64,000 nt of DNA, taken from positions 1,984,001 to 2,048,000 of the forward strand of contig NZ_FSRT01000001.1 of NCBI RefSeq assembly GCF_900143015.1. Direction: 5' to 3'. Of this stretch, positions 936 through 43,095 are shown piece after piece. The position numbers were made by a program, and so were the translations under genes. The stretch's first letter is position 1; the number at the start of each line of letters is the position of its first letter. Source of the DNA: Fibrobacter sp. UWB11 (GTDB lineage Bacteria; Fibrobacterota; Fibrobacteria; Fibrobacterales; Fibrobacteraceae). A model generated the notes under the pieces. It was not told where the DNA came from and made no database searches. It saw only the letters and a program-made list of their open reading frames with translations.

Positions 936-985
936 AGACAGCACGAACGCTTGCGTTCGTATTGGACAACCGCAGTTGTCAAGCC
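936..985 (-). repeat. Interspersed hairpin repeat, copy 7 (degenerate)
   Basis: A 7-bp stem ACGAACG/CGTTCGT closes a CTTG loop at 943-960. A second hairpin, GACAAC/GTTGTC, spans 965-980. Layout and loop match the repeat family described for 42409-42493, but the flanking conserved words are mostly lost. The short sequence CCTCGAAGAGGAATGAC follows and recurs at 1141-1157. Confidence 0.6.
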
Positions 986-1002
986 TCGAAGAGGAATGAC
1001 AT

Positions 1003-1058
1003 GCAAGGCGAGAGCAGCAAGAATGAGCGAACTCATTCTTATTGCCGAGCCGCAGAGT
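1003..1058 (-). repeat. Interspersed hairpin repeat, copy 5
   Basis: CAAGGCGAG, a spacer, then a 9-bp stem AAGAATGAG/CTCATTCTT with loop CGAA at 1019-1040, followed by CCGAGCCGC. The flanking words match the copies at 5166-5246, 36297-36378 and 42409-42493, whereas the stem sequence is unique and self-complementary. It lies between the converging nth and DUF3300 genes, so it has no promoter role here. Confidence 0.75.
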
Positions 1059-1082
1059 CATGTGCTTGCACAATGACAACGA

Positions 1083-1150
1083 AGCCGAGCGATGCAGAAA
1101 CATGCTTGCATGTTTCTATATCCGAGGCGAACATGTCATGCCTCGAAGAG
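1083..1150 (-). repeat. Interspersed hairpin repeat, copy 6
   Basis: The 9-bp stem AGAAACATG/CATGTTTCT with loop CTTG spans 1096-1117 and is flanked by AAGCCGAGC and ATCCGAGGCG. It is the third hairpin of this family in the 287-base gap between nth and the DUF3300 gene. The word GAGGAATGACAACGAAGCCGA, or a close form, recurs around it. Confidence 0.7.
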
Positions 1151-3460: not shown

Positions 3461-5128
3461 TTACTTTGTTGGATTAAAGCTGTCTTTCAATCCCACAGTT
3501 CTGTTAAACACGAGGTGACCCGGCTTGGAGTCTTCGCTATCAAGGCAGAAGTAGCCCTGACGCATGAACTGGAAACGGTCTTCGAGCTTGGCATCGGCGA
3601 GAGCGGGTTCCACCTTGGCTTGCTTAATGACCATGGAATTCGGGTTCAGGTAATCGTGCCAGTCTTCGCCTTCCGGGACCTGGGCAGGATCTTCGAGCGT
3701 GAACAAGTTATCAATGAGGCGCACTTCGGCATCCACAGCGTGTGCGGCAGAAACCCAGTGGATCGTGCCCTTGACCTTGCGGCCATCCGGAGATTCGCCA
3801 CCCTTGCTGAGCGGGTCATAAACGCAGTGGATCACCTTGACCTTGCCGTCTGCATCCTTTTCGACACTCTTGCAAGTGACAAAGTAAGCACCCTTGAGGC
3901 GGACTTCGCCTTCCGGCTTCAAGCGGAAGTACTTCTTCGGCGGTTCTTCCATAAAGTCATCAGCTTCGATGTAGAGTTCACCGCTGAACGGAACCTTGCG
4001 CGTACCGGCATTCGGGTCGTTCGGGTTGTTCTCGACTTCGATCATTTCGACCTTGCCTGCTTCCCAGTTGTCAATCACGAGCTTGACCGGATCAATCACG
4101 GCCATCACGCGGTTAGCGGTCTGGTTCAATTCTTCGCGGATGCAGAAGTAAAGGAGGTTCACGTCGACCATGGAATCGGCCTTGGAAACACCGATGCGGC
4201 TGCAGAACTCACGGATGGAACTCGGGGTAAAGCCACGGCGGCGGAAACCGCAAACGGTCGGCATACGCGGGTCGTTCCAGCCAAGCACAGCCTTTGTCTG
4301 CACAAGTTCGAGGAGCTTGCGTTTGCTCATCATCGTGTACGTGAGGTTCAAACGAGCAAATTCAATCTGCTGCGGACGGTTCTGCAAACCAAGTTCAATG
4401 AGGAACCAATCATAAAGCGGACGGTGGGCTTCGAACTCGAGCGTGCAGATGGAGTGCGTGATGCCTTCAATCCAGTCGCTGATCGGGTGGGCAAAGTCAT
4501 ACATCGGGTAGATGCACCACTTGTCGCCAGTGCGATGGTGCGTGCAATGCTTGATGCGGTAGATGACCGGATCGCGCATGTTCATGTTCGGGCTTGCGAG
4601 GTCGACCTTGGCACGGAGGCACTTTTCGCCGTCGGCGTACTTGCCGTCGCGCATTTCGTGGAAGAGCTTCATGTTCTCTTCAACGCTGCGGTCGCGGTAG
4701 GGGCTCGGGCGGGATGGCTTGCCGGCGTCATTGCCGCGGTATTCCTGCATTTCGTCGCGAGTCAAATCTTCGACGTAAGCCTTACCCATTTCAATCATCT
4801 TTTCGGCAAAGGCGTAAATCTGGTCGTAGTAGTCGCTTGCGAAAAATTCTTCTTTCCATTCAAAGCCGAGCCACTTCACGTCTTCACGGATAGAATCGAC
4901 GTATTCCACGTCTTCCTTGGTCGGGTTCGTGTCGTCGAAGCGGAGGTTCGTAAAGCCACCGAACTTTTTGGCGGTGCCGAAGTTCAAGCAGATGGACTTG
5001 GCATGGCCAATGTGAATGTAGCCGTTCGGTTCGGGCGGGAAACGCGTCAGCACGTGATCGCGCTTGCCGGTTTGGAGGTCGTTAACGATAATGTCCTGAA
5101 TAAAATTCGAAGATTCGGGGATTTCCAT
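3461..5128 (-). CDS. glnS: Glutaminyl-tRNA synthetase
   Basis: 555 residues, normal for bacterial GlnRS. It charges tRNA-Gln directly in the cytoplasm. The class I signature [15 protein letters not shown] lies near residue 30, and the KMSKS equivalent TMMSKRKL near residue 270. [10 protein letters not shown] and the [12 protein letters not shown] stretch are typical GlnRS segments, and the C-terminal half is the two-barrel anticodon-binding region. The start is supported by AAAAGGA ten bases upstream. A TATCTTTC box lies at 5157-5164, directly against a hairpin-repeat copy. Presence of GlnRS suggests that direct charging of tRNA-Gln is used. Confidence 0.97.
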
Positions 5129-5156: not shown

Positions 5157-5164
5157 GAAAGATA
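5157..5164 (-). promoter_or_regulatory. -7-type box TATCTTTC upstream of glnS
   Basis: Read leftward, TATCTTTC lies about 28 bases before the glnS ATG and one base after the CCTTGCACACTTTT end of the repeat. It resembles the Bacteroidota -7 element TAnnTTTG. Confidence 0.5.
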
Positions 5165-5165
5165 G

Positions 5166-5246
5166 AAAAGTGTGCAAGGTGAGTCATGCACGAAAACTTG
5201 TTTTCGTATGTGCGAACCGCAGCCACGGACGCCGAAGGCGTCAAAA
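5166..5246 (-). repeat. Interspersed hairpin repeat, copy 1
   Basis: Read toward glnS, the order is: hairpin GACGCC-TTC-GGCGTC (5228-5242), linker CGTGGCTGCGGTTC, a 7-bp stem ACGAAAA/TTTTCGT with loop CAAG (5190-5207), and the terminal word CACCTTGCACACTTTT. The order and conserved words match copies 2 and 3. The glnS promoter box starts one base beyond the end. Confidence 0.8.
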
Positions 5247-9389: not shown

Positions 9390-9424
9390 ACCGACTACAA
9401 TCAGCCGCATAAAAATCACTGGAT

Positions 9425-9491
9425 GGGGCAAAGCCCCTACTCCTCGGCTCGGTTATAAAAATGAGTTCACTCATTTTTGCAACACTCGCCT
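9425..9491 (+). repeat. Interspersed hairpin repeat, copy 4
   Basis: CTCGGCTCGG, then a 9-bp stem AAAAATGAG/CTCATTTTT with loop TTCA (9457-9478), then ACACTCGCCTT. It has the same orientation relative to the downstream gene as copies 1-3. The upstream hairpin is GGGGCAAAGCCCC (9425-9437) instead of GACGCC/GGCGTC. The promoter-abutting end is replaced by a different scattered sequence (CTTCGACTTCGCTCAGGATG). Confidence 0.65.
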
Positions 9492-9575
9492 TCTGAGTAG
9501 TCTTCGACTTCGCTCAGGATGACACAAACCTTCCTACCGTCGACTTCCTACTGTCTACTACAATTATTATATTAT

Positions 9576-32473: not shown

Positions 32474-33265
32474 ATGACTCCACGCGACAAACTCAAAGCA
32501 TTGCTTCACCAAAAGGAACTGTTCATTTTCGATTTAGATGGAACGCTATTCAATACGCTGGGCGATTTGGCACCCGCAGTGAATTACGCAATGAAGCAGT
32601 CCGGGCTTAAAACACATCCCAACGAAGATGTAAAAATCTTCATCGGAAACGGCTCCATGAACCTCATACGTCGAGCGGTAGCCGCTAATTATGTCGGCAT
32701 GGAAAACATTCGTGATATCGATAAAGTCGCCGCCGTGCTAAGCAGCAATGGCTACAGCGAAGATAAGATTAAAGAAATTCATAAAGTTTATTCAGAATAC
32801 TATTGGGAACATTGTACTGAAAATACAGAACCGTACGAAGGGGTTATAGAACTCGTTCAACGAATCGCAAACATCAAACGTGACGGAAACTGCGCGAATG
32901 GTAATGGATACTGCGCCGGGAATAAATGCGCCGCGATGCTCACAAACAAGCCGGTCGCACCCGCACAAAAAATTCTCGAAAAATTCGGTCTTGAAAATTC
33001 GTTCGCCACATACCTCTGTGGAGACACCACGCCCGCACGCAAGCCAAGCCCCGCCGGGATTTTCGAGATTCTCCGCCAAACAGGAATCGTCCCCGAAAAA
33101 GCAATTATGATTGGTGACGATACACCCGATGTTCTAGCAGCAAAGAACGCAAGCATCGATTGCATCACGCTTTTTGAAGGCTTCGGCAAAGCAGAAAATC
33201 TGCTCCCGCTAGAACCGCGCTATACCGCAGGCCACATCAAGGATTTCGCAGAATTTATCGATTAG
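32474..33265 (+). CDS. HAD-family phosphatase, phosphoglycolate-phosphatase-like
   Basis: 263 residues from the ATG at 32474. HAD motif I is FIFDLDGTLFNTLGDL, the Thr of motif II lies in AAMLTNKPV, and motifs III-IV are KPSP and MIGDDTPDVLAAKNA. The all-helical cap fits the Gph/PGP group, which clears 2-phosphoglycolate and similar phosphate esters. A perfect TAAATTTG lies five bases before the chosen ATG, with no Shine-Dalgarno, so I prefer it over the in-frame ATG at 32444. An insert of about 13 residues (RDGNCANGNGYCAGNKC) before motif II carries three cysteines and is unusual. Confidence 0.85.
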   Translation: MTPRDKLKALLHQKELFIFDLDGTLFNTLGDLAPAVNYAMKQSGLKTHPNEDVKIFIGNGSMNLIRRAVAANYVGMENIRDIDKVAAVLSSNGYSEDKIKEIHKVYSEYYWEHCTENTEPYEGVIELVQRIANIKRDGNCANGNGYCAGNKCAAMLTNKPVAPAQKILEKFGLENSFATYLCGDTTPARKPSPAGIFEILRQTGIVPEKAIMIGDDTPDVLAAKNASIDCITLFEGFGKAENLLPLEPRYTAGHIKDFAEFID

Positions 33266-33274
33266 ATAATTCCA

Positions 33275-33589
33275 TTACCTTTTCAATCTTTGTTTATCAT
33301 CTAAAATTTGGGTTAATTCTCGAGCTGCATATTCAAGGCCATCCCACGGATCCCCTAGTTCATAATTATCCGCATTAACACCATAATAACATACTAAATC
33401 ATAATCAAGCCAATCCGAGACTTCTAAAATTTTTTCTTTTTTTGTGGAATCAGACGTTTCTAACTTGCTAGAATCATTCAAAACACCGGTCGTATCCTGC
33501 TTTTCTTCAGCAGCACCGCAATTAGCCCAAAATACAGCCGTGATCAACAGCGTAATTTTATGAAATTTTTTTCTAAAGAACCTAGACAT
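33275..33589 (-). CDS. Small lipoprotein of unknown function
   Basis: 104 residues. KITLLITAVFWANC is a lipoprotein signal with lipobox FWANC, followed by a Ser/Thr/Asp/Lys-rich linker and a short acidic domain (WLDYDLVCYYGVNADNYELG). The signal resembles those of the two TonB-C-type lipoproteins upstream (ALWAGC, VLWAGC), so the three may be relatives, this one without the C-terminal domain. No function can be given. It follows the next gene by 18 bases and may share its message. Confidence 0.6.
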   Translation of the reverse strand: MSRFFRKKFHKITLLITAVFWANCGAAEEKQDTTGVLNDSSKLETSDSTKKEKILEVSDWLDYDLVCYYGVNADNYELGDPWDGLEYAARELTQILDDKQRLKR

Positions 33590-33607
33590 ACTCTGTATTA
33601 TACAAAA

Positions 33608-34432
33608 TTATTCTGTCAGCGACAAAGGCTGTTCAGAAGCACTTGATGCAGCCGAAGGAATAACTTCGTACAGATTAACAGGGAATGTAAACGTCCCGCC
33701 TCTTTGCGTTTTCGGGAATGCCCAACGAGCTATTGATTTTCTGATTTCTTCGCTAAACTGATCATTCGTTGATTTAATCTCAACATTTTCAACGTTTCCA
33801 CTCGGAGAAATCTTCAGTTCAAAAACAGTCTCTCCTTCAAATTCCTTAGCACGTTTAGCGCTATACTTTACATTTTTATAAAGATTCTTATTGCAGATAT
33901 GGCGTATGGCCGGCGAACGCTGACGGAATACTTTCAGAAAATATTTAACATCAATGTCGTTATCCTTCCCTACGACAACATCATCTTCCGTCAATTCTTT
34001 GACAAGGCAACGAGGAACAGAGCGAGGCGGCCGGCTAATTTCACGAGGGTCATCAGGAGAAACAATCTCACGCGGAGGCCGAACTCCATAAAGGGCTACC
34101 GCTCTCCCCATATTTTCTTCGATAACACCGTACAAAGCCCGAATCATACCGATTTCAGGCTTCATCTTGGCAACGCGAGCAACCTTTTTCAACAGGGAAT
34201 CCTTGGCAGGTTCTATCACAGCAACGTTATCCGAAGCAGACGATTCCGCAAACTCATTTTCAGACACCAAAGTATCCGCAGAAAGAGAACTATTCGCCGA
34301 TTGCGCCGCATTTCCCAAAATTTGCGATTGAGAAACATCCGACTTTTTATCAGAATCGTTACAACCAGCCCACAACGCAGCCGCAGTCATGAGCGCCACT
34401 TTGCCAAGAAATTTGCTGAAGTTTTTCGCCAT
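33608..34432 (-). CDS. Lipoprotein with a C-terminal TonB-like domain
   Basis: 274 residues. The signal ends in ALWAGC (lipobox), then comes a long Ser/Asp-rich linker (about 25-70). The C-terminal part, KYFLKVFRQRSPAIRHICNK then EFEGETVFELKISPSGNVEN and IARWAFPKTQRGGTFTFPVN, matches the AgmX/TonB C-terminal fold (VxFxIxxxGxVxxxxV...W.FP). A normal TonB has a membrane helix and a proline spacer, and both are missing here. This is more likely a periplasmic or outer-membrane adaptor, as in gliding-motility AgmX/PglI proteins. A paralogue lies at 35166-36143. Confidence 0.72.
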   Translation of the reverse strand: MAKNFSKFLGKVALMTAAALWAGCNDSDKKSDVSQSQILGNAAQSANSSLSADTLVSENEFAESSASDNVAVIEPAKDSLLKKVARVAKMKPEIGMIRALYGVIEENMGRAVALYGVRPPREIVSPDDPREISRPPRSVPRCLVKELTEDDVVVGKDNDIDVKYFLKVFRQRSPAIRHICNKNLYKNVKYSAKRAKEFEGETVFELKISPSGNVENVEIKSTNDQFSEEIRKSIARWAFPKTQRGGTFTFPVNLYEVIPSAASSASEQPLSLTE

Positions 34433-34524
34433 GCTTTATAAATAACAAAATTCAAATCAGAAAAATCAGCGTACAAAGACAATTTTACACGTTCAAGGGG
34501 CGTTTTTTTTGCCCAAATATGCTA

Positions 34525-35142
34525 CTAAAATGCAATTTTCGGAGTTTGCGAACGCAGCACCCACAAGCGAATGATAACAGCAACGGTCGCCCCGATAAGA
34601 CACATGAACATATCCGTTTGCGTATCCCAAATGTAGCCCTGCGTTCCTAAAAATGCTTCCGTATCCGTCGGATTGCTGAGCGATGCAAGCCACTCGATAA
34701 TTTCATAAAGCGCAGAAATTGCCTCGGCCACGCACACCGACAAGAAGCCCGTCCAGCCAGCCGTCTTGATCGGAGTCGTGCGGCGCAAAAGTTCAATCAT
34801 CACAAGTGCAGGAGTAACGCCCTGCATCAAATGCCCGATTTTATCGTAGTTGTTTCGCGTCCAGCCGAACCAATCCTGCATCCAGAATCCAAGCGGAACA
34901 TTCGCATACGAATAATGAGCCCCCACCAAAAGTACCGCCATATGGAGCGCCATTACCCCGTAAAGATACGTCGGCATCCTGAATTTTTTGTAAGTCAACA
35001 CAAGGACCAACAGCCCGACAATCGCAGGTGTCGCTTCAAGAATCCAAGTGAGATAAGTATCTTCGACTCCGATGACAGACCAAAGCGTTGTCAGGAGAAC
35101 AAACGCTAGCAAGAACAAATGAGATTTTTCAATATTATTCAT
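34525..35142 (-). CDS. DUF2238 (YjdF-like) membrane protein
   Basis: 205 residues from the ATG at 35142; five more codons upstream are open from 35157. About six membrane helices. Conserved polar residues of the family are present: NNYDKIGHLMQGVTPALV, SALYEIIEWLASL and YIWDTQTDMFMCLIGA. These Asp/His/Glu residues within helices suggest a metal-dependent or proton-linked activity that has not been established for the family. It lies between the two TonB-C-type lipoprotein genes and is read in the same direction. Confidence 0.85.
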   Translation of the reverse strand: MNNIEKSHLFLLAFVLLTTLWSVIGVEDTYLTWILEATPAIVGLLVLVLTYKKFRMPTYLYGVMALHMAVLLVGAHYSYANVPLGFWMQDWFGWTRNNYDKIGHLMQGVTPALVMIELLRRTTPIKTAGWTGFLSVCVAEAISALYEIIEWLASLSNPTDTEAFLGTQGYIWDTQTDMFMCLIGATVAVIIRLWVLRSQTPKIAF

Positions 35143-35165
35143 GCATAGAAAATACAAATTTTCAA

Positions 35166-36143
35166 TTATTTAGGCTGCGACGATAGTCTGGCTTCTTCAT
35201 AAAAACGAATGGGTACATAAACAACAGTCGTTCCTGATTTAACCTTAGAGAAAGTCCATCGACACACCGCATTTATTATGTTTTCATCAAAATCTTTAAC
35301 ACCAGTAGTCGATGAAATTATTAACGCATCTTTTACAGTTCCATCCGCAGAAATCGTTAACATCAATGTAATTTTTCCTTCAAAAGGATTAGACGGTTTT
35401 CCCTCGAGAAACATTCCGTATATATGACTTAAAGTAGGATTTTTTTGTCGAAAAACTTTTGCAACCCTTGAATACATCTCTTGATTAAGAGTTTGATTGT
35501 CTGCGGATTTAATATTTTCAAAAAGAACTTTCGCAGTTGCGTTAGACTTAAACTTAACCGCATTCACATGACCCACCACACTAAGTTCAGAAGTCATACT
35601 AAAAGGATGAACAAGATCTTTAGGAAAAGGATACGATCTTAGGCCATATTCCTCGGGAACACCAACATAAATAAGACCTCTGCTAGTATTTACTCTTGTT
35701 CTTCTAATACAACCGTACTTTTTAACAGAACCATACTTCAACAAGTTTCCTATATCGTATCGAAGCCCCGCATACACGTTGTCCTTACAAACGTTACCTA
35801 ACGGTCCAATAGGAAAATATTCTTTCATCAAGCTATCTCTAGTCCGCTGTTTTTCAAGCAGTTTCGCGGAATCCAACAATATGACCGTTTGGGAATTTGT
35901 ATCAAGGGAATCTTTAGAAATCTCACTCGAAAGAGAATCGTCTTTTCCCGTTACATTCTGCAACGCCGCAGAATCAGATGATTCAACTAGATTGGATATT
36001 TCAGCTACACCGAAACTGTTCGAAGCGCTGCTTAATGACTTTTCATTTTTCGAATCTTTATCAACGTTACTGCAACCAGCCCACAGCACCGCTGTAGCCA
36101 TCAACGCTATTTCACTAAAATATTTGCTAAAGAAGTTTGCCAT
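35166..36143 (-). CDS. Lipoprotein with a C-terminal TonB-like domain (paralogue)
   Basis: 325 residues from the ATG at 36143, chosen by alignment with the paralogue start (MAKNFSKFLG versus MANFFSKYFS). ATGs at 36149 and a TTG at 36158 are in frame. Lipobox VLWAGC is followed by a Ser/Asn/Asp-rich linker (about 25-95) and a middle part containing YVGVPEEYGLRSYPFPKD. The TonB/AgmX-like end runs VAKVFRQKNPTLSHIYGMFL, FEGKITLMLTISADGTVKDA and VCRWTFSKVKSGTTVVYVPI. It is longer than its relative by about 50 residues in the middle. The bases AATTTTGTTATTTAT precede both starts, so regulation may be shared. Confidence 0.72.
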   Translation of the reverse strand: MANFFSKYFSEIALMATAVLWAGCSNVDKDSKNEKSLSSASNSFGVAEISNLVESSDSAALQNVTGKDDSLSSEISKDSLDTNSQTVILLDSAKLLEKQRTRDSLMKEYFPIGPLGNVCKDNVYAGLRYDIGNLLKYGSVKKYGCIRRTRVNTSRGLIYVGVPEEYGLRSYPFPKDLVHPFSMTSELSVVGHVNAVKFKSNATAKVLFENIKSADNQTLNQEMYSRVAKVFRQKNPTLSHIYGMFLEGKPSNPFEGKITLMLTISADGTVKDALIISSTTGVKDFDENIINAVCRWTFSKVKSGTTVVYVPIRFYEEARLSSQPK

Positions 36144-36296
36144 GGCCATAAATAACAAAATTCAAAATAAACAATCAATGCAAAAAAATTTCTTTTACAA
36201 TTTTTTTCACATCATTTTGGCACAAAGGATTTTCAGAACTTTCCATTGAGATTATGGGATTTTTGCGTTTTCCGCACTTCTCGCGCGTCGCTCGCC

Positions 36297-36378
36297 TTTT
36301 GACGCCTCCGGCGTCCGTGGCGGCGGCTCAAATATGCGAAAGCAAGCTTTCGCGCATTATTCGCCTTGCGCACTTTTA
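36297..36378 (+). repeat. Interspersed hairpin repeat, copy 2
   Basis: TTTT, hairpin GACGCC-TCC-GGCGTC (36301-36315), linker CGTGGCGGCGGCTC, a 7-bp stem GCGAAAG/CTTTCGC with loop CAAG (36336-36353), then CGCCTTGCGCACTTTT. The miaB promoter box begins two bases beyond it. CTCGCGCGTCGCTCGCC on its left side looks like a decayed second unit. Confidence 0.8.
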
Positions 36379-36379
36379 C

Positions 36380-36387
36380 TATCTTTG
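36380..36387 (+). promoter_or_regulatory. -7-type box TATCTTTG, five bases before miaB
   Basis: An exact TAnnTTTG match followed by GCCGC and the ATG at 36393. There is no Shine-Dalgarno, so the message is probably leaderless. Confidence 0.55.
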
Positions 36388-36392
36388 GCCGC

Positions 36393-37715
36393 ATGACGAA
36401 ATACCACTTGGCCACATACGGCTGCCAGATGAACGAATACGACTCCGCAATGATAGCTCAACAGCTAGACATGTGCGGCTGCGTCGAGACAAACAACCAA
36501 GAAGACGCCGACATCATCATCGTGAACACCTGCAGCGTACGCGAAAAGGCCGAGGAAACCGCCATCGTGAACATCAGCAAGCTCAAGTACTTGCGCAAGA
36601 AGAATCCCGACGTGAAAGTCGTCGTGTGCGGCTGCATGGCCAAGAACCGCGGCCCAGAACTGCTCAAGCGCCTCAAGAACGTGAACTACATCGTAGGCCC
36701 AGACCAGTACCGCAAAATTCCGGAGCTTCTGTTCGGCGATGCCCAGAGCCCGCTGCACAAGACGCACCACAAGATGTTCATCGACGAAGATCGCAACGAA
36801 AACTACCTCGGCGACTACGCCAAGTTGAGCAATAACTTCAGCACGTTCGTCGCCATCCAGCGTGGTTGCAACAAGCGTTGCAGCTACTGCATCGTGCCGT
36901 ACCTCCGCGGCCCCGAGAAATACCGCGAAGCAGACGACATCCTCGCCGAAGTCCGCAGAGCCGCCGACAAGGGGATTACCGAAGTGATGTTGCTCGGCCA
37001 GACGGTAAACGCCTACAAGACCGCCACCGAAGACTTCGCCACGCTTTTGACGAAGGTCTCCGAAATCGGCGGCATCAAGCGCATCCGCTTTACAAGCCCG
37101 CACCCGCGCCATTATACGAACGAACTCATCGACGTTCTTTTGAACAATCCGAAAGTTTGCCATTACGCGCACATTCCGCTCCAGAGCGGCTCCGACGCCA
37201 TTCTCAAGAAGATGCGCCGCCAGCACAACATGGAGCAATACATGACCGTCATCGAACAGTTGCGTAGCCACGACCCGTACTACGCGATTTCAACAGACGT
37301 CATCTGCGGATTTGTCGGCGAGACCGAAGAAGATTTCGAACAGACTATCAAAGCATTCGAAGCGTGCCAATTCGACACGGCGTACATGTTCATCTACAGC
37401 CCGCGCAAAGGCACGGAATCGTTCAACGAGCCTGAAATCCTCACGCCCGAAGAAAAATCCGCACGCCACACGCGCCTCGTGGAACTCCAGAACGCCATTA
37501 CGCTCAAACGCAACCAGATGATGATTGGTCGCACCGAAGAAATCCTCGTTGAAGCTAGCTCCACCCGCGACAAGACTGAATTTGTCGGTAAAACGGACAA
37601 CTTCAAGAAGGTCATCTTCAAGCCCGAAGAAAGCCGCATTATCAAGCCGGGCGATTACGTGCAGGTAAAAATCGACGATATCCGCGGCTGGACTCTCCGC
37701 GGCACGCTCGTATAG
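36393..37715 (+). CDS. miaB: tRNA-2-methylthio-N6-dimethylallyladenosine synthase MiaB
   Basis: 440 residues from the ATG at 36393. The radical-SAM methylthiotransferase modifies A37 of tRNAs. N-terminal cluster cysteines lie in TYGCQMNEYDS, VNTCSVREKAEE and VVCGCMAKNRG. The radical-SAM CxxxCxxC is RGCNKRCSYCIVPYLRG, and the C-terminal TRAM domain holds EILVEASSTRDKTEFVGKT. EVMLLGQTVNAYK separates MiaB from the related RimO and MtaB. An upstream in-frame ATG at 36366 would lie inside the promoter/repeat and is rejected. A hairpin-repeat copy abuts its promoter. Confidence 0.95.
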   Translation: MTKYHLATYGCQMNEYDSAMIAQQLDMCGCVETNNQEDADIIIVNTCSVREKAEETAIVNISKLKYLRKKNPDVKVVVCGCMAKNRGPELLKRLKNVNYIVGPDQYRKIPELLFGDAQSPLHKTHHKMFIDEDRNENYLGDYAKLSNNFSTFVAIQRGCNKRCSYCIVPYLRGPEKYREADDILAEVRRAADKGITEVMLLGQTVNAYKTATEDFATLLTKVSEIGGIKRIRFTSPHPRHYTNELIDVLLNNPKVCHYAHIPLQSGSDAILKKMRRQHNMEQYMTVIEQLRSHDPYYAISTDVICGFVGETEEDFEQTIKAFEACQFDTAYMFIYSPRKGTESFNEPEILTPEEKSARHTRLVELQNAITLKRNQMMIGRTEEILVEASSTRDKTEFVGKTDNFKKVIFKPEESRIIKPGDYVQVKIDDIRGWTLRGTLV

Positions 37716-42408: not shown

Positions 42409-42493
42409 TTTTGACGCTTTCAGCGTCAGTGGCGGCGGCTCGGTAATAAAATCAAGCAAGCTTGATTTTACTACTCTCGCCTTGCACACTTTT
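42409..42493 (+). repeat. Interspersed hairpin repeat, copy 3
   Basis: TTTT, hairpin GACGCT-TTC-AGCGTC (42413-42427), linker AGTGGCGGCGGCTC, a 10-bp stem TAAAATCAAG/CTTGATTTTA with loop CAAG (42447-42470), then CTCGCCTTGCACACTTTT. TACTCTCGTCTCGCACACTTTT just left of it is a second copy of the end word, so units can abut. In the first hairpin, C-to-T and G-to-A changes keep pairing relative to copies 1 and 2. Confidence 0.82.
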
Positions 42494-42507
42494 GTATATT
42501 CATTTTC

Positions 42508-43095
42508 ATGAAACGAATTATTTTATCTGCTCTTTGCATATCGACGTTTGCCTTCGCAGACGTTACAACAAACATAGAATCGTCCGAAATGGCAACCCAA
42601 GTCATTGCCGAATCATCAGTCTCCACAAACGATGAAGTCGAAGCCAATTACCAATTTCGAAACGATGGCATTCCGTGGAACCGCGAATTTGATTCTGACC
42701 GCATGGTCCGTCACCAGACATTCGACCCAGCCTTAAAAGTCGCATACTCCTATTCACTCAATTTCGTTGCAGGAAGTTTCGGCTCGATCGCAAGCCAAAG
42801 CTTTATGGGACATTTCGCCTACGAGTTCACACCGAATCTTCACTTGTACGCAAATGTTGGTCTCTGGATGCCACTCTACGCAAACATTAGCAACGGTTCC
42901 CGCATCGCAAGAGAAGACCTACGCCAAGGCAATGTTAATGTATTGATTCCAGATGTTTCGCTAGAATACAAGCCTAGCGAAAACACACTAATAAGAATTT
43001 CCTACGTCAATGAACGAGACGCCCTGAAAGCCTACGGCCCACGCAGTTTCTTCCACAACGAATGTTCTAGCCGCAGTTCCATCCTCTGCCAGTAA
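42508..43095 (+). CDS. Secreted protein, paralogue B
   Basis: 195 residues with a signal peptide (IILSALCISTFAFA|DV). Shared blocks with paralogue A are GIPWNREFDSDRMVRHQTFD, PALKVAYSYSLNFVAGSFGS, FMGHFAYEFTPNLHLYANVG, WMPLYANISNGSRIAREDLR and YVNERDALKAYGPRSFFHNE. The N-terminal 30 mature residues differ. A TATATTCA box lies five bases before the ATG, and repeat copy 3 abuts the box. A hairpin terminator follows. The likely role is as a structural or binding component of the outer membrane. The pair is a local duplication. Confidence 0.72.
   Translation: MKRIILSALCISTFAFADVTTNIESSEMATQVIAESSVSTNDEVEANYQFRNDGIPWNREFDSDRMVRHQTFDPALKVAYSYSLNFVAGSFGSIASQSFMGHFAYEFTPNLHLYANVGLWMPLYANISNGSRIAREDLRQGNVNVLIPDVSLEYKPSENTLIRISYVNERDALKAYGPRSFFHNECSSRSSILCQ

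Follow-up and report, generated by a model that had tools for sequence, protein, structure and literature searches.

The window analysed here, a stretch of 64,000 nucleotides from Fibrobacter sp. UWB11, contains seven copies of a short hairpin-forming repeat (Table 1). By direct inspection all seven were found where the first-pass annotation, made from the letters alone, had placed them. A covariance model trained on further copies of the same genome also recovered 7/7, five with E < 1e-8, one with 3.8e-8 and the copy at 943-960 with 1e-4, while the eighth-ranked match in the window had an E of 0.77. As had been claimed, the stem of every copy pairs perfectly; it measures 8 to 11 bp and closes a loop of 2-4 nt. 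The second hairpin, GACGCC/GGCGTC, lies at 5232-5246, 36301-36315 and 42413-42427, the last reading GACGCT/AGCGTC. Pairing had in fact been understated: the helices around the noted stem (P1, P1b and P2) pair too, and conservation extends to the AT/GC and CTCG/CTCG mismatches. Several sites differ between genomes. The site orthologous to 939-1150 in G071 is without the entire array, and the 9422..9510 element is part of an insertion of ~160 bp that is missing from G069 and G071, with CTACAAT repeats on the element's flanks in the window. At the 36297..36378 site, neighbouring species carry one element, two, a remnant or none. The variable genes at 33260-34570 and 35165-36345 are likewise without match in the otherwise syntenic G071 and G069.

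Table 1. Copies of the repeat in the window, with the parts of the 42409..42493 copy
Feature	Position	Strand	Description	Model score
Array copy 1 of three	939..964	-	only P2-P3 hairpin ACGAACG-CAAG-CGTTCGT; outer helices degraded	21.8 bits
Array copy 2 of three	986..1076	-	full element; P3 AAGAATGAG/CTCATTCTT; P2 GCA/TGC; core 1009-1049	55.4 bits
Array copy 3 of three	1082..1150	-	P3 AGAAACATG/CATGTTTCT; P2 GAT/ATC; core 1086-1126	
Element	5160..5246	-	P0 hairpin GACGCC/GGCGTC; P3 ACGAAAA/TTTTCGT; missing from G069 and G071	
Element	9422..9510	+	GGATGGGGC subfamily; P3 AAAAATGAG/CTCATTTTT	
Element	36297..36378	+	P0 GACGCC/GGCGTC; P3 GCGAAAG/CTTTCGC; just upstream of gene starting near 36393	
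Element	42409..42493	+	parts in the rows below	
P0	42413-42427	+		
CTCG, 5' side	42439-42442	+		
P2	42443-42445	+	GTA	
AT	42446-42447	+		
P3 / P3'	42448-42456 / 42461-42469	+		
Loop	42457-42460	+	CAAG	
Mismatch partner	42470-42471	+	AC (usually GC)	
P2'	42472-42474	+		
Bulge	42475	+		
CTCG, 3' side	42476-42479	+	followed by CC, TT and P1'	

Read in the orientation of the first-pass annotation, the unit starts with the P0 hairpin, followed by P1, ~3 nt, P1b (GG or GC), CTCG, P2 (3 bp) and AT, and continues through P3 (mostly 7-9 bp), a CAAG loop, P3', GC, P2', one free base, CTCG, P1b', TTNN and P1'. It is non-coding and ~80 to 130 bp long. P0, P1, P1b, P2 and P3 all vary in sequence and keep their pairing, and the joints, namely the CTCG/CTCG internal loop, the AT/GC mismatch and the CAAG loop, are near-invariant (AT in 236/238 and GC in 227/238, counts that are partly high by construction, as the finder admits close variants only). 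On the opposite strand the joints read GGCGAG/CGAGCC, that is, tandem G.A pairs, and the loop reads CUUG. The tandem G.A motif is stable in RNA and in DNA. Mismatches within P3 are T.C and C.T in the annotated orientation, and thus G.A on the other strand, where we counted 50 G.A against 3 C.T, the first figure being inflated by kinship among copies. Because of this asymmetry, and because the predicted folding energy was lower for the GGCGAG strand in 5/5 strand pairs, our data point to the strand opposite to the annotated one as the folding strand. It would fold as 5'-GGCGAG-N-P2'-GC-P3-CUUG-P3'-AU-P2-CGAG-CC into a compound hairpin with the extra P0 hairpin beside it. Wobble-type pairs made up 10/1201 (5 G.T and 5 A.C). 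As both kinds are rare, they do not separate an RNA from a DNA fold, and they set the repeat apart from the usual wobble-rich RNA stem. A strand asymmetry of wobbles, 14 to 4 in a first set, was dropped when the larger set gave 5 to 5.

Scanning with a covariance model built on 17 copies, with P0 left outside the model, we found 103 copies in the source genome, 7 to at least 72 in each of 36 congener genomes and 0 in 24 genomes from other genera of the phylum. Since the number of candidates scored was capped, the high counts are minimum values. A loose-pattern scan of all species genomes returned 80 loci, mostly chance matches, and the Fibrobacter locus alone passed the covariance model. The pattern CTCG-N(1-4)-AT-N(14-30)-GC-N4-CTCGCC matched the genome 31 times, and its backward reading once, the structure-based finder had 0 matches on reversed sequence, and plasmid records gave no match to the repeat. 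On the viral contig L466 (IMGVR_UViG_3300013129_001015), positions 4136-4155 match the left side of the CAAATGC subfamily.

Across 101 model-aligned copies, 94.2% of cells were paired and 570 were double changed, with double changes at all 17 pairs; the covariation score of 0.825 fell to 0.03-0.14 when partners were slid. This alignment was fitted to the structure and hence favours pairing. A plain sequence alignment of the first 17 copies gave the same picture, with one-sided cells at 1/289, and the pairing of P0 was read directly from the sequences, outside the model. Simple in-house gene calling places almost all copies (99/103) between genes; for eight of the 99, close to the end of a stretch, only one neighbouring gene was in view. 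The check set out in the first-pass annotation, namely a covariance model, a genome scan, covariation and intergenic bias, thus came out positive throughout.

Comparing the stretches around matches in five genomes, we observed many orthologous sites without the element. Two of the empty sites are clean: in G071, AGCAGCAATT directly abuts CCTAACC where G001 has an 85-bp insert, and in G001 TGCTTTAGCA corresponds to a 78-bp insert in G075. Both show a duplication of 0-1 bp, with gain and loss unpolarised. Over the junctions as a whole, target duplications measured 0-1, 4, 7 or 13 bp, with no consistent length. Arrays and composites occur, some copies lying within larger composite repeats, and G034 and G072 have no element loci in common.

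In connection with the stems themselves, P3 and P2 were identical between species at ~17 orthologous loci whose flanks had changed by several per cent to ~15%. At 4 orthologous loci with both flanks alignable, the stem had changed and the pairing was kept (e.g. GTGCAAATGAATTTACAC vs ATCCATGCAAGCATGGCT). One of these is the 42409 copy of the window, with three paired changes relative to G071 and G069 (AAAATTGAA/TTCAATTTT in both; AAAATCGTG/CACGATTTT in G006). The second, G000_L083 vs G001_L353, has an unrelated tip, the third, G000_L104 vs three species, an unrelated tip of another length, and the fourth, beside a tRNA gene, differing stems. One locus carries three paired alleles. The four changed loci have flank divergences of 13-19%, and no rewriting event was seen between near-identical flanks on both sides; over longer times, repeated insertion at a single site may pass for orthology. 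Among P3 sequences differing at one pair, there were 73 double changes against 32 one-sided ones, and 24 of 56 single-pair Watson-Crick neighbours were transversions, which cannot pass through G-U; the 32 transition-type neighbours are also compatible with stepwise compensation. Moreover, 21 P3 sequences were found in more than one P1/P1b/P2 context, although some of the 8-bp cases could be coincidence. Since stems are usually identical or else replaced with pairing kept, G-U is rare and P3 is shared across P1/P2 contexts, each change appears, from these sequence comparisons, to be one concerted event that affects a whole helix, with selection for the fold acting as a filter.

The explanation that we favour, with a probability of roughly 0.55, is a genus-specific mobile hairpin of the REP/MITE sort, with joints under selection, helices changed in concerted steps and a mover supplied in trans. 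Selection on the joints would come from a factor that binds the folded strand, most likely the moving machinery, the putative trans-acting mover. Helices would change mainly in single concerted steps. Either replication would switch templates inside the hairpin, or the segment between two conserved joints would be exchanged with that of another copy, both arms being carried together; half-changed copies would be weeded out. One template-switching event can create or maintain hairpins and alter both arms (PMC8794818). The hairpins described there resemble ours in that one event explains paired multi-base changes, but they belong to RNA genes, whereas ours form a mobile, dispersed repeat in which conserved mismatches separate the rewritten helices. 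Selection for structure and a copying process that rewrites both arms had been offered as two readings of the family, and each seems to hold in part: the former because joints are conserved and stems frozen between species, the latter because stems are replaced at orthologous sites, G-U intermediates are rare and transversion pairs frequent. Compensatory change is usually taken as proof of selected RNA structure. A high-copy, fast-turnover repeat in which paired change seemingly affects whole helices, with few wobble intermediates, lends itself to a natural test of the ways in which hairpins arise and persist, and here that repeat is a genus-wide mobile element with no known mover.

An alternative would be a regulatory or 3'-UTR RNA, selected locus by locus and varying by ordinary stepwise compensatory mutation, with mobility secondary. 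The strong covariation, the favouring of one strand and the freezing of stems between species would fit such an RNA, as would the placement of copies, which occupy 32 convergent and 14 divergent gaps (p 0.011, no baseline for gap numbers) and in several cases begin at the stop codon. A bias for replication strand was weak (63/103, p 0.03) and confounded with gene direction. We consider an RNA of this kind unlikely, as G-U pairs, expected as the commonest exception, are below 1%, the same locus carries unrelated stems, and copy number and sites turn over rapidly. Nor was there an Rfam match: in the window and five loci, tRNAs only exceeded the gathering score. A sub-threshold match to Termite-leu (26.1 bits, cut-off 51) was seen at L049:1386-1470 (-). 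An intrinsic terminator was rejected for lack of a fitting U-tract, the T frequency on the folding strand staying within 0.16-0.30 across all 10-nt bins 3' of the core; the other strand is T-richer 3' of the core, with no consistent tract.

The outer stems might instead be built from the insertion target by snap-back synthesis primed from the hairpin, leaving the order direct copy, P0, inverted copy, core, direct copy. A direct repeat of the right flank was found left of P0 in 20.6% of copies, a minority pattern, against 2.2% of shuffled pairings. At G001_L363 the target TTAATTCCTGGCA stands at both ends and inverted in P0, and only once in the empty site of G071, and at G069_L341 the P1 arm complements the promoter found in the empty site. 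Both filled sites contain the sequence of the empty site doubled and inverted. Direct repeats can, however, also result from similarity between promoters or from insertions nested in older repeats, and P1 is common to many copies of a subfamily, so that we regard such an origin as very unlikely. Its strict form, with P1 always derived from the target, was dropped because clean inserts, e.g. G001_L357, bring both P1 arms along. We give little credence, too, to a mobile DNA that makes its own stems, in which the folded strand would prime snap-back synthesis at or after insertion and copy the target or its own arm. Pairing would then be a product of the movement mechanism rather than of selection, and the fixed mismatched joints would be stop and switch points.

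The small size, intergenic location and inconsistent target duplication of the repeat, together with the folding of one strand around conserved mismatches, resemble REP and IS200/IS605 logic, and the repeat is, like a REP, a short intergenic high-copy palindrome (103 copies, 99 intergenic). That it is a REP-type element whose Y1 (RAYT) transposase was lost from the genome or acts from elsewhere is nevertheless strongly disfavoured: PF01797 had no match in the source genome despite 103 copies, matched in 7/25 genus genomes searched, the source genome being one of the 25, and had no match in 17/24 congeners, e.g. G006, G014 and G019 with 49-71 copies, and a GTAG or CGTC tag stood within 12 nt of the core in 0.4-3.9% of 259 copies each. 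On the lack of tag and host Y1 transposase, a plain REP/RAYT assignment was discarded. Integron attC sites are single-stranded DNA hairpins with a variable stem and conserved joints, and the analogy ends there, as the repeat has no R-box pair (RYYYAAC / GTTRRRY in 0/259 copies) and its copies are dispersed singly over the chromosome. A retroelement origin was set aside, reverse transcriptase (PF00078) being absent from the source genome and sporadic in the genus. REP/REPIN elements with RAYT (TnpA-REP) are likewise short, high-copy, intergenic palindromes, for which sub-families with alternative complementary stem residues have been described (PMC3733652, PMC2817692, PMC8266576). Ours differs in lacking the tag and host transposase, in its much larger compound hairpin and in several helices that all vary, and G-U is rare in it, whereas for GTAG repeats G-T pairing is described as frequent (PMC3733652, PMC2817692, PMC8266576). 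Bacterial MITEs and small mobile sequences (PMC2229807, PMC10969869) are similarly non-autonomous, non-coding and insertion-polymorphic, but for the repeat constant terminal inverted repeats, a constant target duplication and a parent insertion sequence were not found. Mitochondrial repetitive and double hairpin elements likewise spread as intergenic hairpins, some without clear target duplication, with stems reported as conserved and loops as variable (PMC2800124), the reverse of the Fibrobacter repeat. Two papers on bacterial palindromes did not mention Fibrobacter, and repeats of this kind are not described in the main text of the paper on the S85 genome. The statement that no named family resembles this one stands for Rfam and the literature consulted. 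We file the repeat with the dispersed bacterial palindromic repeats, outside REP/RAYT, as a case of unusually clear concerted stem change with no known mover.

Lastly, some loci share further features. An element adjoins a tRNA gene at L048:1500-1701 (C5:91560 in the source genome), L066, G001_L393 and G034_L499; part of the T arm of the tRNA recurs in the sequence around these elements (GGCGGGAG ... GTCGAACCCAC), and the tRNA-adjacent locus has a different stem in three species. A promoter-side subset (36297-36393 and 42409-42508 in the window; G069_L341, G001_L405, G001_L412) terminates at, or immediately short of, a TAnnTTTG-like box near a start codon, and several of its members have a direct copy of this box left of P0. 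Other palindromic words surround many element loci (in the window e.g. at 900-1160 and 9490-9525), among them TCTCGTCTCTCGTCT, GTCATTCC..., CTTCGCTCAGGATGACA and CCCCGGA...TCCGGGG, which suggests that several nested repeat families exist in the genus.
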